From contig CAMBDY010000001.1 of assembly GCA_945865525.1 (NCBI GenBank), positions 62,001 to 126,000 on the forward strand: a stretch of 64,000 bases of DNA, given 5' to 3'. Of this stretch, positions 13,315 to 64,000 are shown piece after piece. The notes beneath the pieces were generated by a model that was not told the origin of the DNA, did not search any database, and saw only the letters and a list, made by a program, of their open reading frames with translations. The position numbers and the translations under genes were made by a program. The first letter of the stretch is position 1, and every line of letters begins with the position of its first letter. The DNA comes from Nitrospira lenta. GTDB taxonomy: Bacteria; Nitrospirota; Nitrospiria; Nitrospirales; Nitrospiraceae.

Positions 13315-13382
13315 GAGCCGAACGGTACCGGTCCTCCGGCTCCTCGGTCTCAACAGGTTGTAAACGGAAAGGAACGACGTGC

Positions 13383-14018
13383 ATGCTGGTTCCCATTGTT
13401 ATTGAAACGACGAATCGAGGCGAGCGGGCCTATGACATCTATTCCCGACTCCTCAAAGACCGGATCATTTTCCTAGGCGCGCCAATTGACGACATATTCG
13501 CCAACTTGATCATCGCCCAGCTTTTGTTCCTTGAAGCGGAAGATCCGGAGAAAGACATCAATCTCTACATCAATTCGCCGGGAGGAAGCGTCACGGCAGG
13601 TCTGGGTATTTACGACACGATGCAATATGTAAAGCCCCCGATCAACACTATCTGCTTGGGCCAGGCTGCCAGCATGGGAGCGTTCTTGCTCACCGCCGGG
13701 ACCAAGGGGAAGCGATTCGCCCTGCCGAATGCCAGGGTGATGATTCACCAGCCCATGGGGGGGTTCTCTGGGCAGGCCACGGAAATCGATATTCATGCCA
13801 GAGAGATTTTAAAAATCCGCGAGCGGCTCAACGAGATCATGGTGAAGCATACAGGCCAGCCGTTGGCGAAGATTGCCCAGGACACGGAACGGGACTATTT
13901 CTTGTCGGCGGAAGAGGCTAAGCAGTATGGTCTCATCGACGAAGTCATCACGAGGCCTCCCAAGCTCCTCAAGGCCGTCAGCGGCGATGCAGGGAAAGAC
14001 GCGGCGAAGGATAAGTAA
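13383..14018 (+). CDS. clpP: ATP-dependent Clp protease proteolytic subunit
   Basis: ClpP forms the 14-mer serine protease chamber fed by ClpX or ClpA. The 211-residue protein carries the complete catalytic triad: Ser98 in GQAASMGAF, His122 in MIHQPMGG and Asp171 in RDYFLS. The N-terminal hairpin and the YINSPGGSV oxyanion segment are also present. The C-terminal tail ([11 protein letters not shown]) is lysine-rich and dispensable-looking. It lies 68 bp after tig and 11 bp before clpX, preceded by an AAAGGAACGACGTGC ribosome binding region. Confidence 0.97.
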
Positions 14019-15446: not shown

Positions 15447-16250
15447 CTAATCTCTCTGCTGTGCCCAGCGCCGGACCTCGCGGTCCGGATCCTTCGTGCT
15501 CGCTGCTTCCAGCGCGGCCTTAGTCTCAGAATCGTTGAATGTTGTTAGGCGATAGGCTGCTTCTGTCCGCACTCTGGGCGAGGGATCGTGCGCTAACTGT
15601 TCTCTGAGCCAAGGGGCGACGGCGGCTCCTCCCCATTCCCCCACCGCAGCCACAACGCCCTGGCGAACCTCCGCATCGGAATCACGGCCTGCGGCGATGA
15701 GCGCAGGAATCGATTGGCTTGAATCGACTTGGAGCAGCGATTGCACCGCCGCACTTCTGATCGTCATGTCCGAAGAACGTAGCAAGGAGACGATCGGTTC
15801 CAGCAATTGCGCGCCGGGCTCGATCTCGCCGATTGCCACAATCGCGGCCTGACGAACCGACTTGATGGGATCCTCCAGCGCTTGCGCTAATAGGAGCACG
15901 ATAGCTTCTGTGGCTGCCGGCTTCAATCGTCCCAGCGTAGTCACCATCGCTTCGCGAACCAGTGCGTCTGGGTCGCGGGCGAGTGAGAGGATCGAGCTAG
16001 TGGCGTGCGGGTCGCCGATTTTTCCGAGGGACTCCACTGCCGTTCGCCGCATCTCTGGGCGTTCATCGTGGAGCAGTTCCAATAGCAGTGAGACTGTTTG
16101 CGCTTTAGATGAAGGGGGAGAATCCTGGATACAGCCGAAGAGCGCAAAGGTCAGTGACAGAGCCGACCATCCGATGGCGCAGGAGGAGAAAGCGGGATAG
16201 ACCAGGGGCCAGATAGCGGCCAGGCTGATGGAGCTCTTTCGGCAGCTCAC
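15447..16250 (-). CDS. HEAT-repeat lipoprotein (PBS-lyase-type repeats)
   Basis: The 267-residue protein starts at GTG 16250, overlapping the stop of tatA by 4 bp. A hydrophobic segment ends in the lipobox LFGC (Cys about residue 40), so it is probably lipid-anchored. The rest is a regular array of six or more 30-residue HEAT repeats such as MRRTAVESLGKIGDPHATSS and VREAMVTTLGRLKPAATEA. Repeats of this kind are scaffolds for protein contacts. Coupling to tatA suggests the two are made together, but no functional link is known to me. Confidence 0.82.
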   Translation of the reverse strand: MSCRKSSISLAAIWPLVYPAFSSCAIGWSALSLTFALFGCIQDSPPSSKAQTVSLLLELLHDERPEMRRTAVESLGKIGDPHATSSILSLARDPDALVREAMVTTLGRLKPAATEAIVLLLAQALEDPIKSVRQAAIVAIGEIEPGAQLLEPIVSLLRSSDMTIRSAAVQSLLQVDSSQSIPALIAAGRDSDAEVRQGVVAAVGEWGGAAVAPWLREQLAHDPSPRVRTEAAYRLTTFNDSETKAALEAASTKDPDREVRRWAQQRD

Positions 16251-17047
16251 GCTTGCTTCGGAGGCTCCTCATGCAAGGCGGGCAATTCTTTAGCTGCTTC
16301 GAGGGATTGCTGGAACTCTTTCTGTGCCGAATCCATTTCAGCTTGGATCGTACGTATTTCAGGATCGACTGAATTCCGAACATCGGCGACGGCCTGCTTG
16401 AAGGTCCGTAAGGCATCGCCTAGCCCCTCGCCCAAGCTCTGCATGTCTTGAGGGGAGACGCTGGTTGACTGTGCGGCCTTCGCTTTCATCGCCGCTTGCT
16501 GCGCCTGCACGCGGATTACGGCATCCTTGTTCACAATGGCTGAGGGGCGTTTGGCTATTGGCTTCGCCTGAGCCCCAGGAGGAAGAGGCGGATACTGTGC
16601 CTTCATCATTGGGGTGGGCGCCGCTGCTCGTTCTTCCATCGTGGGGGGCTGCTGGCCCTGCGCCGCTGCCGGGGCTGCAGGTGATGCCGCTGTGTGAACC
16701 GGCTGTGGCGGAGCTGCCATCTTGTACATCAAGGCGGCGGTGGTTCCAGGGGTCAGTTCCGGGCCTGGGGTATAAGGAGCGGTGGGTTTCAACGAGGCAG
16801 GCGCCTGTCCTTGCGTCACAGTTGTGGCTGGTACAGTCTGGACCGCTGCTTGGATCTGCATGGGGGCGGGCTCAGTGATCTCCGGTTGCACCGCCTCTGG
16901 CGCGGGGATTTCATTGACTTCTTTTTTGAATCCTCGGAGCGCCTTGCCCACCCCTTCACCGATTTGCGGAAGTTTTCCTGCCCCAAAAATGATGAGAACG
17001 ATGACCAGGATAATGATGAGCTCCGAGATCCCCATGGTACCAAACAT
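16247..17047 (-). CDS. tatA: TatA-family Sec-independent translocase subunit with long tail and second amphipathic helix
   Basis: The start at ATG 17047 is chosen because the Tat domain begins there and AAAGGAA lies upstream. Residues 5-22 are the membrane helix, then a Gly hinge and the amphipathic helix (about 27-45, IGEGVGKALRGFKKEV). TatA forms the pore that exports folded proteins. The protein is 266 residues, far above the usual 60-100. A Pro/Ala/Gln-rich linker (about 48-170) leads to a C-terminal part in which residues 204-222 (SLGEGLGDALRTFKQAVAD) closely repeat the first amphipathic helix, followed by a coiled-coil-like helix. No tatC is in the window. A TatB-like role is possible. 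Confidence 0.87.
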   Translation of the reverse strand: MFGTMGISELIIILVIVLIIFGAGKLPQIGEGVGKALRGFKKEVNEIPAPEAVQPEITEPAPMQIQAAVQTVPATTVTQGQAPASLKPTAPYTPGPELTPGTTAALMYKMAAPPQPVHTAASPAAPAAAQGQQPPTMEERAAAPTPMMKAQYPPLPPGAQAKPIAKRPSAIVNKDAVIRVQAQQAAMKAKAAQSTSVSPQDMQSLGEGLGDALRTFKQAVADVRNSVDPEIRTIQAEMDSAQKEFQQSLEAAKELPALHEEPPKQA

Positions 17048-53938: not shown

Positions 53939-54892
53939 TTACACATGATTGCGTAGCATGAGTTCCTTCGGATGCGGATTGAGGTAGACCTGATCTCGCA
54001 TATAGCAGACGTCAAAGATCTGGATGTAGTGCTTGATCAGGGTTAGAGGCACCACCAGCGGCGTGAGGCCACGATGATAATCGCTGATCACGGCGAGCAG
54101 CTCAGTTTTTTCCTGGGGCCCTAATTGATTCTTGAAGTAGCCCAGAATATGTTGGAGGACGTTTACATGTTTGCGCACCGTCGCCTTCATGGCCAAGGTT
54201 TTCATGAACAGTTCGCCATACCGGCTTGCAAGTTCTTTCGGGGGGCACTGTGTCGCTTGACCGATGAGCTGTCCGAGGACTTGGCTCTGTTGCGGGCTAT
54301 GGGATAACAGTAAATATTTGTGGATCGTGTGGAACTGTACAAGCCTTTTCGCTGTGGCTCCCTTCCGCATGAGATCTTGCCAGCGGTGGTAACAGAAGAC
54401 CCGTTCGATAAAATTCTCCCTGAGCGGCGCATCACAAAGCCGCCCCTCCTCCTCAATCGGAATGAGCGGAAAGTGCTCCATGAAAGCCCTGGCGAACAGC
54501 CCGACTCCATTCCGGTTGGGTATCCCTTGCTCATTGTAGATACGCACTCGCTCGATCCCACAACTCGGTGACCCCTTTTTAAAAACATACCCAGATAGAT
54601 CCAGCTCTTCGAGCTCTTTGAGACGATTCTCGGTCTTTTTTTTGACCGTGCCTGTGTGATCTGTTCCACTCTTAATCGTGACAAGCCGTGGATGGTGGGC
54701 ATCGCCGACTAACCGCATTGCCTCGCGAGGCGTCCCTAGGCCTGCCTCAACCTCAGGGCAGACCGAGACCCACTCGACGTACTGCCCCAACACATCGGTC
54801 AGAAAACCGTCCCGCTTATGTCCCCCGTCGAACCGGACCTCGTCTCCCAGGAGGCAACGGCTGATCCCAAGACGGAGCGTCAGGGCTGTCAT
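53939..54892 (-). CDS. DUF523 and DUF1722 (YbgA) fusion protein
   Basis: The 317-residue protein has a DUF523 half with ISRCLLGDEVRFDGGHKRD, VCPEVEAGLGTPREAM and KKGSPSCG (residues about 8-105). The DUF1722/YbgA half has LVQFHTIHKYLLLSHSPQQ (about 186-305). The conserved Cys residues of DUF523 suggest a metal or cluster site. No activity is established, but it is a regular partner of photolyase genes and overlaps the photolyase start region by 4 bp here. Confidence 0.92.
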   Translation of the reverse strand: MTALTLRLGISRCLLGDEVRFDGGHKRDGFLTDVLGQYVEWVSVCPEVEAGLGTPREAMRLVGDAHHPRLVTIKSGTDHTGTVKKKTENRLKELEELDLSGYVFKKGSPSCGIERVRIYNEQGIPNRNGVGLFARAFMEHFPLIPIEEEGRLCDAPLRENFIERVFCYHRWQDLMRKGATAKRLVQFHTIHKYLLLSHSPQQSQVLGQLIGQATQCPPKELASRYGELFMKTLAMKATVRKHVNVLQHILGYFKNQLGPQEKTELLAVISDYHRGLTPLVVPLTLIKHYIQIFDVCYMRDQVYLNPHPKELMLRNHV

Positions 54893-56337
54893 CTCGTCAC
54901 CAGATGCCTGCCAAGGGCTAAATATTCATCGCGGGCTTGTTGGTGATCCACGATGGGTGCAGGATAGTCCCTACCAATGCGGCATCCTGCTAGAGCCTGT
55001 TCGTCCTGAGTCATCAGGTGCGGTGCATGGATCCGATCAGCCGGGACGGCCGCAAGCTCTCGGGCATATTGACGAATATAGGCACCTTCCGGATCGAACT
55101 TCCTGCTCTGGAGCAGGGGATTGAAAACCCTGTACCCTGGCATGGAGTCCGTTCCGGTTGCAGAGGCCCATTGCCAATTCCCATTATTAGCAGCAAGATC
55201 GCCATCGACGAGTTGTTGCATGAAATAGCGTTCCCCGCTTTGCCAGTCGATCCGGAGGTCTTTGATGAGAAACGATGCCACGACCATTCGTACGCGATTG
55301 TGCATCCATCCGGTCTCGTTCAACTGCCGCATGCCGGCATCCACCAATGGATAACCGGTCCGTCCCTCACACCAGGCCGTATAAAGACGATTCCACTTCG
55401 CTCCCGCCCGACGGGGTTGCGGTAGCCCATTCTTGATTCGAAAGGGGCTGGAAGCTACCTGCGGAAACGCCGACAAGACTTGTTGGAAAAACTCGCGCCA
55501 GATCAATTCATCGATCCAGGTGAGCACATCGCGACGCGAAACAACGCCGTCTGTCGCAAGCGTGCCTAAGGCTGCATGCACGGCAGTTCGCGCTGAAAGC
55601 GTCCCAAATCTGAACTGTGGAGACAGCTTGGATGTGCCGTCGATCGCGGGGAGATTCCGTCCTTCAACATAGCGGTGGATGGGACCGTTGAGAAACCAGC
55701 GTAGCCGTCGCCGCGCCTCCTTCTCTCCCGGCTTGATCCACAAAGGAACAGTCTGATAGCCGAGCTCTTCCACTGTTGGCAGCACAACTCGAGGCGATAC
55801 GGTACCGGCGCGTCGGTACCGTTGCCTGAGAGGGGAGGGAAGGAGCGGCGGACTCGCGGCCTGCCACTTGGCCCACCATCGCGCTCTGTAGGCACTGTAT
55901 CGCTGCAATGGATTCCCTGTTGCACCTCGGATTTCTTCGGCCTCGAAGACCACATGGTCTTTGAAGGTATGAACCGCCACGCCACGAGTCATGAGCGCCT
56001 GCTGGACTTGTTGGTCTCGCTGGATCGCCGCCGGCTCGTAATCGCGATTCCAATATACTACCTCGGCCTTGACGGTCTTGACGAAACGGAGCACTTCTTC
56101 AAGTTGATCCCCTCGGCGCCACTGCAAGGACAGTCCTCGTTCGGCCAGCGTGTCGGCTAGCTCTACCAGGCAGGAGACCATGAATGTTACGCACGATGAG
56201 CCGAACTGCCGGGAACGCAAGAGGGGCTCGTCGAATACGAAGAGGAGCAGGACCTCGTCGCACTCTGCGCAGGCCGCAGTGAGTGCCGGTTGATCTTGTA
56301 GCCGCAGATCCCGCCTGAGCCAGACAACCCCGCGCAT
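54889..56337 (-). CDS. phrB: Deoxyribodipyrimidine photolyase
   Basis: The 482-residue flavoprotein repairs UV-induced cyclobutane dimers using blue light. The N-terminal domain starts VVWLRRDLRLQDQPAL, and the FAD domain has ELIWREFF, TGYPLVDAGMRQLNETGWMH and NRVRMVVASFL. ANNGNWQWASATGTDSMPGY and FNPLLQSRKFDPEG are the class I CPD photolyase text. It is coupled to the DoxX-like gene (TAATG) and to DUF523/DUF1722 (ATGA). A cryptochrome function is less likely because the dimer-binding text is intact. Confidence 0.94.
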   Translation of the reverse strand: MRGVVWLRRDLRLQDQPALTAACAECDEVLLLFVFDEPLLRSRQFGSSCVTFMVSCLVELADTLAERGLSLQWRRGDQLEEVLRFVKTVKAEVVYWNRDYEPAAIQRDQQVQQALMTRGVAVHTFKDHVVFEAEEIRGATGNPLQRYSAYRARWWAKWQAASPPLLPSPLRQRYRRAGTVSPRVVLPTVEELGYQTVPLWIKPGEKEARRRLRWFLNGPIHRYVEGRNLPAIDGTSKLSPQFRFGTLSARTAVHAALGTLATDGVVSRRDVLTWIDELIWREFFQQVLSAFPQVASSPFRIKNGLPQPRRAGAKWNRLYTAWCEGRTGYPLVDAGMRQLNETGWMHNRVRMVVASFLIKDLRIDWQSGERYFMQQLVDGDLAANNGNWQWASATGTDSMPGYRVFNPLLQSRKFDPEGAYIRQYARELAAVPADRIHAPHLMTQDEQALAGCRIGRDYPAPIVDHQQARDEYLALGRHLVTR

Positions 56338-56759
56338 TAGTGGGTCTCCTCCGATACCTGCGTGTCATGCGTCGTTGTTGGCATCTCGTCCATGAACAGG
56401 GCCCGTCTCCGGACTATATAGGCGGCAAACAGCATCGTCGTGGCCATGAATGCTGATCTCACAGGATGAAAGCCGAACGACAGTTGATTCATGGTTTCGC
56501 TCACCAGACCGAATCCTGCATAGGCTAGGCTCAGCCCCCAGGCCCAGGGTCTTAGCCAAAGGAACCCATAGCCGATGAGGAGGTGTACGGCAGGGGAGTG
56601 GAGCTTAATGAGATACGATGAGGGACCCGCCACAGCCACGCCGAACAGTTTGAACGCATAGGCAGGAAATAGGGCAATGACGACCAGATCGACCGTGCCA
56701 AAGATCAGAAAGAGTCCACCTAGGATTTTGATATCAAGTCCGATTCGTGCGCTGCGCAA
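56337..56759 (-). CDS. DoxX-like small membrane protein
   Basis: The 140-residue protein has four predicted transmembrane helices (about 10-35, 45-65, 68-90 and 102-120) and a short charged tail. Layout and length suggest the DoxX-like group, but the similarity is weak. Its stop codon overlaps the photolyase ATG by 1 bp, so it is co-translated with photolyase. Confidence 0.65.
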   Translation of the reverse strand: MRSARIGLDIKILGGLFLIFGTVDLVVIALFPAYAFKLFGVAVAGPSSYLIKLHSPAVHLLIGYGFLWLRPWAWGLSLAYAGFGLVSETMNQLSFGFHPVRSAFMATTMLFAAYIVRRRALFMDEMPTTTHDTQVSEETH

Positions 56760-56806
56760 TGTGACCTCCCCCGGACGGAATAGGGCTCTTCACCCTTTCG
56801 TTTCCT

Positions 56807-57337
56807 TCAGCGCCAGGCATCCGGGATGCCCGTCCACCAGGTTTTTGGATTTTCCGTACGCCATTGTGTTTGTTGCTGCCACAACCGATCGGCCTCACGC
56901 TTGTTCAACCGGGCAGCCATTGCGGCACTCACATCAGACTGCTGCTGCACGCTAGTCTGAATCATCTCCTTTGCCATGCGAGCCAACCCACCCAGAGGAT
57001 CAATCAAATCTTGCGCATCTTTGTAGGCCAAATTCAGGTGCACCTGTTCGATGGTGTGCCACTGCTCCTCCTGCGCCAGATGCTCCACATAGGCATCAAT
57101 CGCTTGGAAAATATAAGTCACGTAGATATAGGCCTCGACGGAGGGGACGGTGTCGATTTCTTTTTGACAGGCCTCCAGCGCTCGACGGTAATCGCCCGCC
57201 ACCAGATAAATATTCGCTTTTATCAGGCTCGCACGCGGGGAGCCTGCGCCAGCGGCGGCTGGTTCCCCGAACCCAGACGCCCCGCCAAGCATGACCACGA
57301 GCACAAGTGCCGCAAACGTCTTCAGGCCAGTGCGCAT
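56807..57337 (-). CDS. Exported helical protein, TPR-like
   Basis: The 176-residue protein has a signal peptide (MRTGLKTFAALVLVVMLGG...). Its mature part is helical and starts with a TPR-like unit (ANIYLVAGDYRRALEACQKE). Next is an aromatic-rich region and a final Trp-rich segment (LWQQQTQW, then TWWTGIPDAW). No family is recognised. It lies 9 bp from the PDZ gene upstream and 47 bp from the DoxX-like gene downstream, all on one strand. Confidence 0.7.
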   Translation of the reverse strand: MRTGLKTFAALVLVVMLGGASGFGEPAAAGAGSPRASLIKANIYLVAGDYRRALEACQKEIDTVPSVEAYIYVTYIFQAIDAYVEHLAQEEQWHTIEQVHLNLAYKDAQDLIDPLGGLARMAKEMIQTSVQQQSDVSAAMAARLNKREADRLWQQQTQWRTENPKTWWTGIPDAWR

Positions 57338-57346
57338 CAGTTACTC

Positions 57347-57826
57347 CTATCGAGCCGGACCGCCATGTGGTCCCATTTCGTTCTTAGAGAGCTTCTCACT
57401 ACCGATGCGTGTGATCGCGAGCTCACGCAGGGGTCCATTCCCCTTCACCTCTAGTTTCACCAGGGTACCGGGTTCTCCACGCACCATCTTCACCACCTGC
57501 TCATAGGTTTTCCCGGTGACTGGGGCACCGTTCACCGTCACCACTTCATCGCCGTGCTGGAGTCCGGCTTGCTGGGCAGGACCCTCCGGATGGACATGGG
57601 CCACGTACAGCAAAGTCGGGTCACCAATCCGTTCTCCTCCGACCTGCAGCGATACACCAATCACCCCGTTCGGCAGATTGGCCTCATCGCGGTACGGTCG
57701 ACTCATATCACTCTTGGACTTGTCCTGCCCCTCCGCCGCCAGCAGCCCCTCATTCGCGCCGCCAGACAACGCGTAGAGAGCGGTGAAAAAAAATATTTCG
57801 GCCAGGGTGTATCTGTTCATGCTCAT
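57347..57826 (-). CDS. Exported single PDZ-domain protein
   Basis: The 159-residue protein has an N-terminal hydrophobic signal (TLAEIFFFTALYALSGG) and one PDZ domain at about residues 52-140. GVIGVSLQVGG is followed by HVHPEGPAQQAGLQHGDEVV, TVNGAPVTG and the last strands LVKLEVKGNG. No protease domain is attached, so it may be a periplasmic adaptor. It lies between DUF4149 and the TPR-like gene with short gaps. Confidence 0.83.
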   Translation of the reverse strand: MSMNRYTLAEIFFFTALYALSGGANEGLLAAEGQDKSKSDMSRPYRDEANLPNGVIGVSLQVGGERIGDPTLLYVAHVHPEGPAQQAGLQHGDEVVTVNGAPVTGKTYEQVVKMVRGEPGTLVKLEVKGNGPLRELAITRIGSEKLSKNEMGPHGGPAR

Positions 57827-57845
57827 CTGATGCCCTCCTTGTGAA

Positions 57846-58319
57846 TTAGAGTCGTTGCGTAAACCACAGTAGGCAGAGTCCCACGAGTAACACCATCGAG
57901 TTCAGAAAGACTGATCGTTGATGCAATCGATTCCACGCGACCTGCAAGGCGGGATCGACAACTCCTCGCGACTCCTGTTCCTTGAGTCGATCTCTCATAG
58001 CATTACTCTGCGGCGTGAGAGGCGCGCGGCAATAGGTTTCGGCGGCTAGGATGATCAGCCACAGCACGGCAATGAGATGCCACGCTGGATTCGCGGGGTG
58101 GATCATTCTCGAGCCAATCACGGAGACTACTCCTACGATCGAGGCACCCATGCCAAGTGCATAGTAGGCAGGAAACAGTTGACGAACAACCGTACTGAAA
58201 GTTTCTCTCTCCAATGTCTTTGCAAGGATCGGGGCTACCACGAACGACAAGAGCACCACCTTGCCGACAAGCACAGCGACGGCGAGCATGTGCATATAGG
58301 TGATCAGCTGATGAGCCAT
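57846..58319 (-). CDS. DUF4149/CopD-like membrane protein
   Basis: The 157-residue protein has four transmembrane helices (about 8-30, 52-72, 80-98 and 135-153). VGKVVLLSFVVAPILAKTLERETFSTVVRQLFPAYY fits, read in two parts, the DUF4149 (TMEM205-like) pattern: a helix ending in VAP and an FP-x-YY segment. The function is not established. It is 13 bp downstream of the TIGR01777 gene. Confidence 0.72.
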   Translation of the reverse strand: MAHQLITYMHMLAVAVLVGKVVLLSFVVAPILAKTLERETFSTVVRQLFPAYYALGMGASIVGVVSVIGSRMIHPANPAWHLIAVLWLIILAAETYCRAPLTPQSNAMRDRLKEQESRGVVDPALQVAWNRLHQRSVFLNSMVLLVGLCLLWFTQRL

Positions 58320-58332
58320 GCCAGAGCTTTCC

Positions 58333-59250
58333 TCATCCCTTGGTCAGAGTCGCCAGTAAGGCCGATTTGAGTGTCGGATAGTGAAAGCTGTAGCCCCCAG
58401 CGAGGGCCTTAGCTGAATAGACCCGTTGGCCCGTGCTCATAAGGGTTCCTAGTTCACCTAGTGCAAGCTGCAACACAAAACCTGGTACGGGAAGCCAGGA
58501 GGGCCGGCGGAGGACTTGTCCGAGCACCTCGCAGAACTGGTTCATCGTCACAACCTCAGGCGCCACTGCATTGACGGGACCAGAGATGCTTGGTGTGGCG
58601 AGCAGCCATTGGATCAAACCAATGTGATCACGCCGATGGATCCAGGACACCCACTGAGTCCCCGGCAGGATCGGGCCGCCTGCAAAGAGGTGGAACGGTA
58701 GCACCATCTTCGGCAAGGCCCCACCGTCTTGTTCAAGGACCATTCCGGTTCGCAACGTGACGACTCGCACACCGAACTCCGCAGCTCGAAGCGCCTCCGC
58801 TTCCCACGCGAGACAGAGATCGGCCAGAAAGCCTTGGCCACGCGCGGCACCTTCATCCAATACGGACGTGTCGTTGACCCCATAATAGCCAATACCCGAG
58901 GCGTTGATCAGCGTGCGAGGTTTCGAGGACTGACGTGACATGGCTGAAACCAGCAGACCGGTGGGGAGGACCCGACTTATCGTGAGGAGTCGCTTGCGAC
59001 CGTTGGTCCAACGGCTATCGGCAATGGGTGCACCGGCAAGGTTGATGACGGCGTCGGCTCCTTTGAGACAATCCTCCCAGGAGCCAGCTTCGTGGCCATT
59101 CCATTCGACAGCCGTGACGGTTGAGCCATAGAGTCGCTGCGCCTCTGTTATTCTTCTCGTAAGAAGCGTGACCTGATGCCCCTCCTGACAGAGCGAGAGA
59201 CATAAGGGATGACCGATAAATCCTGTTCCACCAGCCACAACAATATGCAT
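58333..59250 (-). CDS. TIGR01777-family NAD-dependent epimerase-like protein
   Basis: The 305-residue protein has the SDR-type start IVVAGGTGFIGHPLCLSL, NLAGAPIADSRWTNGRKR, the catalytic-site Tyr in SGIGYYG and the C-terminal DUF1731 segment. These are diagnostic for the TIGR01777 (SDR39U1/YfcH-like) family. The substrate is unknown. Family members are frequent in light-response clusters with photolyase and SDR genes. It is the first gene of the fifteen-gene minus-strand row, with GAGGAGATGAGCT ahead of its ATG. Confidence 0.9.
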   Translation of the reverse strand: MHIVVAGGTGFIGHPLCLSLCQEGHQVTLLTRRITEAQRLYGSTVTAVEWNGHEAGSWEDCLKGADAVINLAGAPIADSRWTNGRKRLLTISRVLPTGLLVSAMSRQSSKPRTLINASGIGYYGVNDTSVLDEGAARGQGFLADLCLAWEAEALRAAEFGVRVVTLRTGMVLEQDGGALPKMVLPFHLFAGGPILPGTQWVSWIHRRDHIGLIQWLLATPSISGPVNAVAPEVVTMNQFCEVLGQVLRRPSWLPVPGFVLQLALGELGTLMSTGQRVYSAKALAGGYSFHYPTLKSALLATLTKG

Positions 59251-59835
59251 AGCTCATCTCCTCGCCAGGACTACTAGGGGGCAACAGTTCGCGAGCCGTC
59301 TAGTTGCCGGTCGCTCTTATGATCCACTGGGCTCTCCACAATCGACGTGCGGCGCATAGGTCGCTACTTCGCATCGTGCACGAGATCCAGGATCCGGCTC
59401 AGTCGGTTCCGGCGAATGACCGGGGCCACAACCTTGCTGCAACTGACGTAACGGAAACCCGTGAGGCCAATTCACCGGTATCGTGCTCAAGGTCCAGAGA
59501 ATACTCTCCAGCTCGCAACGGTTTGCTACGCATACAGATTCGGTCACGGAATGACTAGGGAATGGTCGAGACTTGTCGGGTCTTGCAGTCGATACCACGG
59601 GACCCTTCGCTGGCGATCACAAGAGTCAACAGCCTACTCCTCATGTGCTTTGAGGCCTGCCTGATCCCAGCTTCTGCCGTATCGCGCGCGCTGTTCTCCA
59701 TGGCACAACATGTACCCAATAACGTAGTGCGACTAATGCCATGGCACACCACATCATCTGCTCCATGCGGCCCCCTTCTTCATGCGGTCAGGTCACTACC
59801 ATTGTATAAATTAATTGTTACAACACACCCACTGT
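59251..59835. other. Intergenic region of 585 bp without a credible gene
   Basis: No frame on either strand has a recognisable product or a good ribosome binding site. The stretch probably contains the promoter of the TIGR01777-led row. Near its right end an AT-rich inverted pair TTGTA (59802-59806) and TACAA (59819-59823) stands out from the GC-rich surroundings, close to the stop of the SUMF1-fold gene. It could be an operator or transcription end signal. Confidence 0.45.
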
Positions 59836-60678
59836 TTATTTTTTCTGGGTCTGGCCCTCGACGCCTCGTGCACAGCGAAAGCCTGTTCCATGGGTCTGTA
59901 GTGCGAACCCTCCGCGCCCGCGCGCCGTCGTCGTAATGTCCGCAGTCGGGCTATGCCACGATCCTCCGCGAATTGATCGTACGATACCCTTGGTGTCAGG
60001 ACCCTGCGGATTTCGATCCAGTGCATTCTTGTAATATTCAGGGTGATACCAATCTTGTACCCACTCGCGTGCATTACCGGACATGTCCTTCACGCCGTAG
60101 GGTGAGTCGCCGCCAGATAAGGACCCGACCGGATGCAATGTTTTCGCCTCATCCCACTCACGATCGAAGTTGGCCCGCTTCGCTGTGGGGGGTTCGTTCC
60201 CCCATGGAAACAGGCGACCATCAGTCCCCCGAGCGGCCTTCTCCCATTCGGCTTCTGTCGGGAGTCGCTTCGTGGCCCAACTACAGTAGGCCTTGGCGTC
60301 GTACCAAGTGATTTGTACCACCGGAAGGTGTTCAATCCCTTTTGCGGACGAGAGCACGCCGGTGCCATAGGGATTCGGTGGGTTCCGATGACCCATGATT
60401 CCCACGAACCTCAGATACCGTTCATTGGTGACCTCGACTTGATCAATCGTAAATTCGTCGAGGTACACAGAGCGCTGTGGCCATTCATCTGCACGGCCTT
60501 TGCCTTCCGGACTCCCCATCAGAAACGCGCCAGCCGGAATCGTTACCATGGGAACCTGATCGAGTTCATTAGCCGCTTCTGGTATCGCTACCAGAACAGG
60601 CGCAACGGCATAGGCCAGAGCCAGTATTGCGAGGATACTGCTCCTCTTGGCTTTTTGCCGATTCGGAACTTGCGTCAT
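59836..60678 (-). CDS. Exported SUMF1/FGE-fold protein, short form without catalytic Cys pair
   Basis: The 280-residue product has a signal-type hydrophobic segment (SSILAILALAYAVAP, about residues 13-27). The complete FGE-sulfatase fold follows: PMVTIPAGAFLMGSPEGKG, KRLPTEAEWEKAARG, DMSGNAREWVQDWY and IRGGSWHSP, ending THGTGFRCARG. The stretch after GGSW has no Cys, so the two active-site Cys of formylglycine-generating enzyme are absent and it cannot act like FGE. ATG 60678 overlaps the upstream gene by ATGA. Role unknown; it ends soon after the SUMF1 core, unlike the two homologues upstream. Confidence 0.88.
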   Translation of the reverse strand: MTQVPNRQKAKRSSILAILALAYAVAPVLVAIPEAANELDQVPMVTIPAGAFLMGSPEGKGRADEWPQRSVYLDEFTIDQVEVTNERYLRFVGIMGHRNPPNPYGTGVLSSAKGIEHLPVVQITWYDAKAYCSWATKRLPTEAEWEKAARGTDGRLFPWGNEPPTAKRANFDREWDEAKTLHPVGSLSGGDSPYGVKDMSGNAREWVQDWYHPEYYKNALDRNPQGPDTKGIVRSIRGGSWHSPTADITTTARGRGGFALQTHGTGFRCARGVEGQTQKK

Positions 60679-61043
60679 TTCTTATGCTCCTTGCTTCCTT
60701 TGAGTGCCTTGTCGGCATGGGCCTTCACTTGGCGGACAAGATCCTGCACCTTAGCCGCGTCGCCCTGCCCGGCGGCTACGCGTGCTTCCGTTACGAGCTC
60801 TCTAGCGTCGCTCAGGTGGTCTTCAATCTCCGTTTGCAGGGTAGGGGAGGCAACGGTTCCACCTAACGCAGCGCGGTGATACGCCTCCCACGCACGGTCC
60901 ACCGCATGTTGAGCCTCATGCACTGCCTGCGCGATTTTTGGATGCGGGTGCCGAGACGTATCAAGGGGGCCAGCTTGGAGCGGTGAGGCCCCGAGCAGTG
61001 CGATGAGGACTAATGCTACATAAAGGATTTTATTGCATACCAT
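60675..61043 (-). CDS. Small exported helical protein, SmbP-like in style
   Basis: The 122-residue product has a signal peptide ending in LQA and an almost entirely helical mature part of about 98 residues. VHEAQHAVDRAWEAYHRAAL and HLSDARELVTEARVAAGQ repeat an Ala/His/Glu heptad-like pattern. This recalls the four-helix small metal-binding protein SmbP of nitrifiers, but there are fewer His residues. Metal binding is therefore only a possibility. It sits between two SUMF1-fold genes and overlaps the downstream one by 4 bp. Confidence 0.72.
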   Translation of the reverse strand: MVCNKILYVALVLIALLGASPLQAGPLDTSRHPHPKIAQAVHEAQHAVDRAWEAYHRAALGGTVASPTLQTEIEDHLSDARELVTEARVAAGQGDAAKVQDLVRQVKAHADKALKGSKEHKK

Positions 61044-61099
61044 CGCTATCCTCCTTTCCTCATGATCCAGCCATCCGCAAAAACGCTCTCAATGTTTCT

Positions 61100-62158
61100 T
61101 CACGGCTGCTTCATCGACGCTTTAATAAGCGAGTGAAGTTCCAGTAATTCAACGTTCTTGGGGTCGATGGTCAACCCTTGATCCACTAGCTTCTGTGCTT
61201 CCGCAAACCGTTCGCGTCCCATGTCTACCAACGCTGCGATGTAGTTGTCCCTGAGCTGCTGCTCGATGGCTGCCGGCGCGGCCATCGCACAGCGAAAGCC
61301 CAGACCGACGCCGTAGCTGTTATTGAGTGGGTCATTCCAGAACCGATGCGCCGATCTGACCGTGCCCGCCGGTGCGATCCACGAGCCCCCACGAATAACC
61401 CGCTTTTCACCAACTGTGAGCCGGTCCACATAGGTACCCGTACCACCCATCCACACGGGTTTTGCCGGACCAGTTGGATTCACCGGGGTTTCAAGCCGTG
61501 TATAGTACCGGGGGTCATACCAGTCAGCCACCCACTCAAAGGCATTGCCTGCCATGTTGTAGACGCCATAATAACTGGCGCCTTCTGGATAAGAGTCCAC
61601 TGGCATGGTTGTCTCGTTATTCTTCCCATAGTTGGCTTTTGCTGGATCAATGTCATTACCCCAGGGATAGAGATTGGCCTTTGGGCCACGAGCCGCCTTC
61701 TCCCATTCTGCTTCGGTCGGAAGTCGTTTGCCCCGATATTCACAGAACAATTTCGCATCACCATAATTGACCCCGACGACCGGCTGGACTGCTTTATTTA
61801 AACGAGGATCGTCCCAGTAGGCTGGGGCGGGATGACCCTTCGCCTTTATGAATTCGCCAAAGTCCTTGTTCGAGACCTCATATTTGTCCATTAGGTATGA
61901 GTCAAGGAACACCGTGTGCGCCGGACCTTCGTCGTTGAAGGCCTCCGCAGACCAGGGCCGACTCATTCTTTTGTCATAGAGCGTGGGTTTTTTGTCCGAG
62001 GGCCCCGGCGCCTTCCTGTCAAGGCCCATTACTGATGGCCCATGTCCGATATAGACCATTTCTTTCGGGGTCAAGGATTCGTCGGCATAGCTCGTTCCGG
62101 CTAGTATGGTCATACCGGTCACTAGGACCGCTGCCAGAGCAGCGTTTAATCGATTCAT
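61100..62158 (-). CDS. Exported SUMF1/FGE-fold protein with C-terminal helical tail
   Basis: The 352-residue protein has a signal peptide (about residues 1-25, ending SYA) and the FGE-sulfatase fold: KRLPTEAEWEKAARG, NMAGNAFEWVADWYD, IRGGSWIAPAGTVRSAHRFW and GVGLGFRCA. As in its neighbours, the Cys pair used by FGE is missing after GGSW. After FRCA come about 55 residues forming a TPR-like helical pair (RERFAEAQKLVDQGLTIDP then VELLELHSLIKA). It is clearly a paralogue of the gene at 62224-63204, 65 bp upstream. Confidence 0.9.
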   Translation of the reverse strand: MNRLNAALAAVLVTGMTILAGTSYADESLTPKEMVYIGHGPSVMGLDRKAPGPSDKKPTLYDKRMSRPWSAEAFNDEGPAHTVFLDSYLMDKYEVSNKDFGEFIKAKGHPAPAYWDDPRLNKAVQPVVGVNYGDAKLFCEYRGKRLPTEAEWEKAARGPKANLYPWGNDIDPAKANYGKNNETTMPVDSYPEGASYYGVYNMAGNAFEWVADWYDPRYYTRLETPVNPTGPAKPVWMGGTGTYVDRLTVGEKRVIRGGSWIAPAGTVRSAHRFWNDPLNNSYGVGLGFRCAMAAPAAIEQQLRDNYIAALVDMGRERFAEAQKLVDQGLTIDPKNVELLELHSLIKASMKQP

Positions 62159-62223
62159 GTCAAACCTCCTGTCGCGGAATCGGTCTTGGGGGGCCTTGCG
62201 GCCCCCCTGAATTAGTTCGCTGA

Positions 62224-63204
62224 CTATTTATTTTTGACGCTCTTCTTAATTAAGTCCCGGGTCGCTTGATATTCCTTGTTACCTGGATCCGCTGCCAAGG
62301 CTTTGCTAATGGAGGTCATCGCCTCCACGTTCTTTTCCGCACCCATCGCCACTAAGGCTTGAATGAAGGCGTCCTGGCCCGCTTGTATCGTTTCGTCTGA
62401 TCCAGCCTTCGCATCTATCGATTGCGCACAACGAAACCCAAGGCCGACCCCGTAAGAGTTATTGTCCGGTTGATTCCAGAACCGATGGCTCGCATGGAGG
62501 GAGGATGCAGGTGCGAGCCAGGAACCGCCGCGCAGCGCTTTCACTGGGCCTTGATTGGCAAAGTTGTACCCCTTTTCCGCGCCCTTTGGATTTAAGGCAG
62601 GGCTTTCCTTGTAATACTTCTGATCGTACCAGTCTTCCACCCATTCGAAGACGTTCCCCGACATGTTATAGACCCCGAACCCGCTCACACCCTCCGGGTA
62701 GGAATCAACGGCGGTCGTATGACCGACATTCTGCCCATAGTTGGCTTTCTTCTGGTTGAGTGTATGGCCCCAGGGATAATGGTTGTCGCCTTGTGGGCCC
62801 TTAGCCGCTCGCTCCCATTCTGCTTCCGTTGGCAGCCGCTTACCCTCCCATTTGCAGAAGGCGCTGGCGTCCGTCCAGCTCACACCGACCACCGGCTGAG
62901 TGGCTTTGCTGAGCCGCGGATCGTCCCAGTAGGCCGGCGCTGCGTTACCGGTCGCATTCATAAAGGCTTTGTACCGGGTGTTTGAAGTTTCAAACTTGTC
63001 GATCAAGTAGGCATCGAGCACGACCTGGTGCTTGGCTTCATCTGAATGGTGTTCGCTGCCCATGGTGAACTCGCCCCGTGGGATAAGTACCACAGCCTTA
63101 TCGCTAGCCTCGCTAGGTGGCGTGTTCGCCGCTGACGCGACAGAAATAGCTCCCGCTATTAATGCCACGCTTAATCCGACTTGGAGAACGGTCTCACTCC
63201 GCAT
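62224..63204 (-). CDS. Exported SUMF1/FGE-fold protein with C-terminal helical tail, paralogue
   Basis: The 326-residue product has a signal peptide ending near SAA and the same fold: VLIPRGEFTMGSEHHSDE, PAYWDDPRLSKATQPVVGV, KRLPTEAEWERAAKG, NMSGNVFEWVEDWYD and LRGGSWLAPASSL, ending GVGLGFRCAQS. No Cys follows GGSW, so FGE chemistry is excluded. The C-terminal 60 residues (EKNVEAMTSISKALAADPGN) match the tail of the downstream paralogue. AGGAGGG-type sequence precedes ATG 63204. It is 19 bp downstream of the zinc-ribbon gene and likely in one transcript with it. Confidence 0.9.
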   Translation of the reverse strand: MRSETVLQVGLSVALIAGAISVASAANTPPSEASDKAVVLIPRGEFTMGSEHHSDEAKHQVVLDAYLIDKFETSNTRYKAFMNATGNAAPAYWDDPRLSKATQPVVGVSWTDASAFCKWEGKRLPTEAEWERAAKGPQGDNHYPWGHTLNQKKANYGQNVGHTTAVDSYPEGVSGFGVYNMSGNVFEWVEDWYDQKYYKESPALNPKGAEKGYNFANQGPVKALRGGSWLAPASSLHASHRFWNQPDNNSYGVGLGFRCAQSIDAKAGSDETIQAGQDAFIQALVAMGAEKNVEAMTSISKALAADPGNKEYQATRDLIKKSVKNK

Positions 63205-63223: not shown

Positions 63224-63526
63224 TTACGACCGACCCAACCCCTTAGATGGAGAGGACTTCTTTGGCGTATGCGCCAAGGAAGCCAGGCTCAACTGATGCC
63301 CAGCCTCTCGATTCTGCAGGATAATGGGATCGACTACGTCGCCGCATTGTACACAGCGTCTCCCAGTAAGTTCCAGCCCCCCGGCACTTTCGAGCGACCC
63401 CCCGCAAGAATAATTGACCATGAGTCCCTTGCATCGACTGCAAGCAGGTTCACGCCGGATGACGGAAGGGACGTAGTGAGTGTCGAACTGCCCAATTCCG
63501 ATTTTTTCGACCATTGCTCTTGCCAT
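63224..63526 (-). CDS. Small zinc-ribbon protein
   Basis: The 100-residue protein has two Cys pairs, Cys29-x2-Cys32 (CSRCKG) and Cys58-x2-Cys61 (CVQCGDVVDP), with another Cys at 41. This spacing suits a zinc ribbon or rubredoxin-like knuckle. No DNA-binding helix is obvious, and the tail is Ser/Lys-rich. GGAGGGGAAC precedes ATG 63526. It is the first gene of the SUMF1 block and is divergent from the merR-like gene, whose operator boxes also cover its promoter. Confidence 0.75.
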   Translation of the reverse strand: MARAMVEKIGIGQFDTHYVPSVIRREPACSRCKGLMVNYSCGGSLESAGGLELTGRRCVQCGDVVDPIILQNREAGHQLSLASLAHTPKKSSPSKGLGRS

Positions 63527-63550: not shown

Positions 63551-63644
63551 CGTCCAATGTTAGACTAAGCCATGTCCAATCTTTAGGCTATTTTGTCCAA
63601 TGTGTCAAGCGTTATTCTCTTAAATATTTGACAAACATTGGACA
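63551..63644. promoter_or_regulatory. Operator array: four TGTCCAAT boxes with 21-22 bp phasing
   Basis: The boxes are CGTCCAAT (63551-63558), TGTCCAAT (63573-63580), TGTCCAAT (63594-63601) and the inverted ATTGGACA (63637-63644). Steps are 22, 21 and 43 bp, close to whole helical turns, so all lie on about the same face of the DNA. The third and fourth boxes each sit in the spacer of one of the two divergent promoters. A multimeric MerR-family repressor such as the adjacent gene product is the natural candidate binder. Confidence 0.7.
63580..63608 (-). promoter_or_regulatory. Promoter of the zinc-ribbon/SUMF1 block
   Basis: Read on the minus strand, consensus TTGACA (63608-63603), a 17-nt spacer and TAAAGA (63585-63580) form a good sigma70-type promoter 54 nt upstream of the zinc-ribbon ATG. 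An ATTGGACA box begins 1 nt after the -35 element. Confidence 0.65.
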
Positions 63645-63656
63645 TTCAAGTATGTT
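63628..63656 (+). promoter_or_regulatory. Promoter of the merR-like gene
   Basis: TTGACA (63628-63633), a 17-nt spacer and TATGTT (63651-63656) form a good promoter. An ATTGGACA box begins 3 nt after the -35 element, so the regulator probably represses itself. The expected start point is only a few bases before ATG 63668, giving a very short leader. Confidence 0.65.
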
Positions 63657-63667
63657 GGGGTTCATCA

Positions 63668-64000
63668 ATGAACATTCATAGAATTCACAGAGTTGCAAAG
63701 CTCACAGGCCTTTCGAAGGATATTATCCGCGTCTGGGAGAGGCGATATGGGCTTGTCAAGCCTTCACGAAGCTCCAATCGCTATCGCGAATATAGCGACG
63801 AAGAGGTGGCGCTCCTCCGCTTTGTAAAGAGTCAGATGGAGCACGGCGCAACGATTGGTTTACTGGCAGCGGAGGGACATGATTCGCTTGTCGCACGCAT
63901 GCATAGCGCGACTGCTTTTTCTCCGGAGGATCAGAAGCCGCATAATCGCTTGTTAGATGATTTGATGAGATTCCTAGACCCACTTGATAAGGCAGGATTC
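63668..64000 (+). CDS. MerR-family regulator resembling CarH/LitR photoreceptors, N-terminal part
   Basis: The first 111 codons are visible and the gene runs off the right edge. Residues 4-70 form a MerR winged helix: IHRVAKLTGLSKDIIRVWER, then RYGLVKPSRSSNRYREYSDE and EVALLRFVKSQMEHGATIG. The WERRYG...P.R...NYR-type wording is the CarA/CarH/LitR subgroup, whose full-length members carry a cobalamin-binding domain and sense light. The start of a following helical region (NRLLDDLMRFLDPLDKAGF) fits the helix bundle that precedes that domain, but the cobalamin motif is beyond the window. It faces the zinc-ribbon/SUMF1 genes across a shared operator region. Confidence 0.85.
   Translation, partial: MNIHRIHRVAKLTGLSKDIIRVWERRYGLVKPSRSSNRYREYSDEEVALLRFVKSQMEHGATIGLLAAEGHDSLVARMHSATAFSPEDQKPHNRLLDDLMRFLDPLDKAGF

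Follow-up and report, generated by a model that had tools for sequence, protein, structure and literature searches.

The window examined here, a stretch of 64,000 nt from a Nitrospira lenta contig, ends in a carH-like gene that is read on the plus strand (63668..64000) and continues past the window end to C1:126585 (L004:10669-11586). Its 305-aa product combines a MerR DNA-binding domain with B12-binding domains (Pfam MerR_1, B12-binding and B12-binding_2). The minus strand carries a divergent string of genes. The first of these (63224..63526), the conserved divergent neighbour, encodes a zinc-ribbon-like protein of ~100 aa with two Cys pairs and no Pfam match. Three FGE-sulfatase-like genes follow within 59836..63204 (62224-63204 and 61100-62158, both PF03781, and 59836-60678, assigned by sequence similarity), with a 122-aa gene (60675-61043) ahead of the third, an order kept in most relatives. 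Next come, in the order found at the related locus L137, genes for a TIGR01777 oxidoreductase (58333-59250), a DUF4149 protein (57846-58319), a PDZ protein (57347-57826), a 176-aa protein (56807-57337), a 140-aa protein (56337-56759) and a photolyase (54889-56337), all on the minus strand. The conserved string has the same sequence of genes, with a second zinc-ribbon gene placed between the third FGE-like gene and the oxidoreductase gene. The intergenic segment 63551..63656 is read, from its sequence and from matches to two sequence models described below, as a CarH-type operator/promoter region for two divergent promoters.

The genome to which the window belongs is 1.80 Mb in size and 99.7% complete, and the nearest orthologues of its carH-like gene come from Nitrospira assemblies. 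No amoC gene was found on searching this genome, and the organism therefore looks like a nitrite oxidiser and not like a comammox bacterium. The same genome gave no match to PF04244, whereas the streamlined Nitrospira lineage of the Great Lakes is reported to have an FeS-BCP photolyase (PMC9239080).

Anatomy of the promoter region

The predicted carH promoter (63628..63656, plus strand) consists of TTGACA at 63628-63633, a 17-nt spacer and TATGTT at 63651-63656, and is kept in orthologues. Two TnnACA repeats 11 bp apart, TTGACA at 63628 and TGGACA at 63639, overlap its -35 element and spacer (63628..63644); the second lies in the box ATTGGACA (63637-63644), which starts 3 nt past the -35 element. 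The predicted divergent promoter (63580..63608, minus strand) has TTGACA at 63608-63603, again a 17-nt spacer, and a weak TAAAGA at 63585-63580. Three TnnACA boxes accompany it on the same strand: ATTGGACA within the spacer, 1 nt past the -35 element (63594..63601); a further ATTGGACA after a 21-bp step, near the predicted start site (63573..63580); and, after a 22-bp step, ATTGGACG in the 5' leader of the zinc-ribbon gene (63551..63558). The last step has no recognisable middle repeat in the window.

The initial annotation had described the boxes, the exact TTGACA pair, the 17-nt spacers and the 21- and 22-bp steps, and each was found where it had been placed. Some of its other statements held in part. 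The two promoters had been called good: both -35 hexamers are indeed perfect, but the -10 hexamers TATGTT and TAAAGA share only 4/6 and 3/6 positions with TATAAT. They had been said to point away from each other, which is right, since they stand back to back; the heading 'face-to-face' given to them is not. The positions of the two boxes beyond the minus-strand promoter stand, but the outermost one departs from the other three by one mismatch. As to carH itself, only a few nucleotides of leader follow its predicted start site (63656-63668), which would make the mRNA nearly leaderless.

Clustering of the boxes was scored against 300 first-order Markov simulations of the window, in which the maximum was 4; the observed score is 8. 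Two exact boxes at the spacing seen in the window occur once in the 1.80-Mb genome. The notion that AT-rich promoter sequence produced the boxes by chance, with TTGACA adding some TnnACA matches of its own, thus has to face a score reached in 0/300 simulations and a conservation across ~46 orthologues; its probability is practically nil, and the comparative data that follow already refute it.

Conservation of the array and comparison with CarH operators

Related loci (29, of which 28 are from Nitrospirota) were collected and supplemented by whole-genome search; removal of duplicates left 47 upstream regions, the window being one of them. With few exceptions the ~46 Nitrospira orthologues have the whole arrangement in common. 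On the carH side the plan in relatives is TTGACA AACAT TGGACA, in which the TnnACA repeats are exactly 11 bp apart, followed by a -10 element such as TATAAT or TACAAT; TTGACA-N5-TnnAC[AG] is present in 43 of the 47 regions. On the divergent side TTGACA is followed by a 17-nt spacer that contains a TGGACA box, by the -10 element TATACAT and by TAGACA, beyond which come a degenerate repeat at 11 bp (often GATACA) and TGGACA or TGAACA at 22 bp. In five loci (L027, from Nitrospira moscoviensis, and L065, L066, L067 and L068) a perfect TnnACA fills the middle position, reading TagACAtacatTgaACAtacatTaaACA in L066 and similarly in the others, and the 22-bp step is therefore two 11-bp units. The earlier equation of 22 bp with two 11-bp half sites is thereby borne out, both by these gap-filled relatives and by the published CarH repeat, nnnnTnnACAn (PMC9304148, PMC8156234). 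Over the 47 regions, TnnACA pairs at 11, 21, 22 and 23 bp exceed shuffled sequences more than 10-fold; the other enriched spacings (7, 9, 14, 29, 30 and 43 bp) come from pairs that also involve -35 and -10 elements.

Two sequence models were used to search genomes. R2, built for the divergent side from 23 relatives with the window left out, has the window site as its sole match in the window genome (E 7.9e-9, 36.5 bits); most members of the genus score 47-75 bits, so the operator of the window is the weaker one. R1, which covers the carH side and includes the window sequence, likewise has one match in that genome, at the same site (E 1.8e-8). No further TTGACA-N5-TNGACA site was found there. 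A genome search for spaced boxes had been suggested as a way of defining the regulon. Single TGTCCAAT boxes define no scattered regulon: the window genome holds 42 copies, mostly isolated, and most genomes have a single array, the one at carH.

Co-occurrence was assessed in 61 genomes, 30 with a carH-like gene and 31 without. The divergent-side array is present in 24/30 of the former and 0/31 of the latter, with a Fisher P of 1e-11 that overstates independence because the genomes are related. Within the family the counts are 23/24 with the gene and 0/13 without, and in the lone exception, G024, the carH match covers only residues 137-303, so that the DNA-binding domain is absent. It might be supposed that some other regulator binds the boxes and that carH is their neighbour by coincidence. 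The co-occurrence of array and gene in one direction, the location of the array at carH's own promoter, and the agreement of the repeats with the known CarH consensus and spacing make that supposition very improbable.

Published CarH operators are TnnACA direct repeats in 11-bp steps, some imperfect and one including the -35 element, and operators expected to control divergent promoters have been reported in Sorangiineae and Nannocystineae (PMC9304148, PMC8156234). The array in the window resembles the operators of Thermus thermophilus, Bacillus megaterium, Myxococcus and Cystobacter in its direct repeats, spaced by 11 bp on the carH side and by 22 bp on the divergent side (11 bp in L027 and L065-L068), with some imperfect copies. 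It also resembles them in its position on the -35 and -10 elements of target promoters: the carH-side repeat includes TTGACA, and a box occupies the spacer on both sides. It differs from them in having two groups of repeats in opposite orientation, one for each divergent promoter, and in the one 22-bp step that lacks a recognisable middle repeat. Its targets would also differ, being FGE-like, zinc-ribbon and photolyase genes, whereas known CarH operators serve carotenoid genes. The view that one array beside a CarH/LitR-like gene serves two divergent promoters is thus supported by the sequence and by the relatives, and the array is very probably the operator through which the CarH-type MerR/B12 regulator encoded next to it controls the divergent photolyase string. 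The low R2 score, the two poor -10 hexamers and the missing middle repeat on the divergent side count against this reading.

Several CarH-like protomers would bind the TnnACA repeats spaced by 11 bp. At carH's own promoter they would cover the -35 element and spacer, and at the divergent one the -35 element and spacer, the start site and the leader. The outcome would be repression of carH itself and of the divergent string, from the zinc-ribbon, FGE-like and TIGR01777 oxidoreductase genes to the photolyase gene, a string that is presumably co-transcribed. Binding of the CarH-like protein to the array, with repression of both promoters, is strongly inferred. Where relatives have kept the adenosyl cap intact, the behaviour of the family suggests that the repressor would be an AdoCbl-bound oligomer that sits on DNA in the dark and is released in the light.

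The CarH-like protein and its altered cofactor site

Thermus CarH/LitR is the best solved homologue of the window protein by sequence, and Thermus CarH is also the best fold match of its AlphaFold model, which is of moderate confidence (mean pLDDT 80, pTM 0.65). The protein shares with the CarH/LitR photoreceptors (5C8D, 5C8E, 3WHP) the two-domain layout and fold, the RxWERRY helix (RVWERRY, in PF13411), the lower-ligand His, SxT and GG. By all signs, it would work like a CarH at DNA.

The cofactor motifs are a different matter. The key AdoCbl-binding residues are W131, E141, H142 and H177, and CarH photoreceptors carry the signature GxxW, EH, GxxH, GxxxP (PMC11796333); in Thermus CarH, Glu141 forms a hydrogen bond with the adenosyl group (PMC10442372), and the CarH homologues studied are said to share Wx9EH without exception (PMC8156234). 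CarH/LitR photoreceptors keep Wx9EH, and so do the full-length Nitrospira relatives, all of which have its spacing and its Glu-His (L071 has Tyr in place of the His that follows the Trp). Only the window protein lacks the cap Glu and one of the residues before it: the motif reads WHEGE-SVAVSH, a 3-nt in-frame deletion, known from one assembly of the species, combined with Glu>Ser. Of the signature, GELW, GEVH and GPNLP are present, and EH has become SH. The cobalamin motif D/ExHx2G/P...SxT/V...GG is also broken, with EVHEIS (Gly>Ser) where all the other proteins compared keep the Gly; SLT and GG are intact. Among the columns invariant in the other 45 proteins, just two are altered in the window protein (E152S and G192S), and both lie in cofactor motifs. 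What it retains includes the DNA-binding helix, the Trp and adjacent His, the His of EH and the lower-ligand His. Against the NCBIfam equivalog NF052513 it scores 141 bits, below the 400-bit cut-off, as does the intact relative L016 (154 bits).

Judged by the defining motifs, the window protein is not a CarH photoreceptor. The initial annotation had treated the regulator as a cobalamin photoreceptor repressor, which these losses do not support for the window genome. Given the deletion and the two substitutions, light sensing cannot be assumed there; light control is uncertain and perhaps lost, and the sensor may be light-blind. Repression in the window genome is probably light-insensitive or differently gated, because the cap Glu is lost while the DNA-binding helix, the lower-ligand His and the Trp-His pair are kept.

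As a form of the preferred explanation with different gating, the protein may be a cobalamin-independent constitutive repressor like CarA of Myxococcus, or may use another form of cobalamin; we give this somewhat less than an even chance. CarA of Myxococcus xanthus, too, is a CarH relative with a damaged Wx9EH and the same kind of operator, and provides a natural precedent for a B12-independent sister (PMC8156234). The retention of the DNA-binding domain and the operator after loss of the adenosyl cap fits such a course, as does that of the Trp-His, the EH His and the lower-ligand His. The route would differ, however, since CarA lost the Trp and its neighbours and kept EH (PMC9304148), whereas the window protein kept the Trp and lost the Glu. 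Lack of AdoCbl is not an obvious cause of the motif loss and is not supported as one: a gene for a PduO-type adenosyltransferase is present in the window genome, which on searching proved to lack the CobA/BtuR type.

The divergent gene string and its variants

In the window, the string is interrupted by a gap of 585 bp (59251-59835), which makes a single transcript from ~63574 to 54889 less certain. The gap holds the degraded remains of the second zinc-ribbon gene, of which L016 and other relatives have an intact copy; it is 72% identical in DNA to the corresponding gap of L137 over 454 columns, and no matching open frame is listed for it.

This degraded region is one of several signs that the system in the window may be decaying, with a non-working regulator, a photolyase string that is constitutive or hardly expressed, and an operator that is a fading relic. 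The cofactor-site residues lost in the window protein alone, the weak -10 elements and the low operator score point the same way, as does the small genome (1.8 Mb, compared with 2.3-4.4 Mb for most relatives). So does the raised dN/dS of carH, which is 0.16-0.18 between the window and its nearest relatives and 0.09-0.10 between those relatives. Relaxation of the whole neighbourhood was not found, as the three FGE-like neighbours have no clear rise in dN/dS; the 122-aa gene does have one. Decay is, all the same, an unlikely reading. The carH gene is an intact frame of 305 aa under purifying selection (dN/dS ~0.18 overall and ~0.1 in the DNA-binding domain), and three exact boxes, both TTGACA hexamers and the phasing have been kept at 0.46-0.66 synonymous changes per site from the nearest relatives.

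The operator is also met without a complete carH. In G028 (L135) and G027 (L134, where the string ends at the contig end) a second operator copy adjoins only a carH stub, an N-terminal fragment. These copies score 58.6 bits (L135:5313-5592) and 52.6 bits (L134:1263-1539) with R2. The operator has outlived carH there, probably because the divergent genes make use of it. The oxidoreductase-to-photolyase half of the string (54889..59250 in the window) has, in L135, this operator copy of its own, which reads into genes for a zinc-ribbon protein, AmoC, a 193-aa protein, a zinc-ribbon protein, the oxidoreductase, the PDZ protein, the 140-aa protein, the photolyase and DUF523/DUF1722, with DUF1365 and CMAS genes nearby.

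DUF1365, CMAS, DUF523/DUF1722, TIGR01777-type oxidoreductase and photolyase genes are typical of LitR/CarH light regulons. L135 is like the regulons of non-phototrophs in having all of these near the operator. The Nitrospira string departs from them in placing FGE-sulfatase-like and zinc-ribbon genes first and, in some comammox genomes, in including amoC.

Four ammonia-oxidising relatives (genomes G020, G023, G025 and G028) have amoC on the divergent strand ~0.6-6 kb downstream of the operator, and an amoC fragment has the same position in G007. The segments concerned are L135:5482-7048, L138:4551-6071, L139:3236-9034, L140:9061-15498 and, for the fragment, L142:15303-16144. A single dedicated clade of operator-linked AmoC was not found, as the linked copies fall at different places in a tree of poor resolution; amoC may therefore have been recruited repeatedly, or conversion may blur the picture. 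We treat the link of amoC to the operator in comammox relatives as a lead only. The fullest form of the proposal is tentative and rather unlikely as a whole. It holds that Nitrospira, comammox members included, have a B12-based light regulon whose operator governs an amoC string in several comammox genomes, so that light would induce synthesis of part of the ammonia monooxygenase just when the enzyme suffers photo-damage, and that in a small-genome nitrite oxidiser the repressor has turned light-blind with its operator kept.

That light inhibits nitrification has long been observed in ecology. A search of the open-licence literature for a cobalamin light-sensing circuit in Nitrospira found none, and brought up only a Leptospirillum paper. 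The present analysis offers a defined operator, a candidate sensor and candidate targets that include a photolyase and, in comammox relatives, amoC. In the window genome a CarH may have lost its adenosyl cap naturally and kept its operator, an example that would help to explain how a photoreceptor turns into an ordinary repressor.

The module takes other forms as well. In L018, L022, L024, L032 and L034 the same operator faces a gene for a NapC/NirT-type multihaem cytochrome with no zinc-ribbon gene, and in some of these a cytochrome c-FGE fusion follows. L020 has three carH paralogues within ~8 kb (L020:1560-9957), each with operator-like boxes, as a multiplied module; their divergent genes are of the zinc-ribbon, cytochrome/FGE or NapC-like kind. 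L040 has a carH without a DNA-binding domain (L040:5001-5510) and no operator model match in the locus, and a similar carH match lies at G024:C8:151029. Just outside the window, two near-identical non-coding stretches stand ~2.8 kb apart (L004 ~13335-13560 and 16150-16370).
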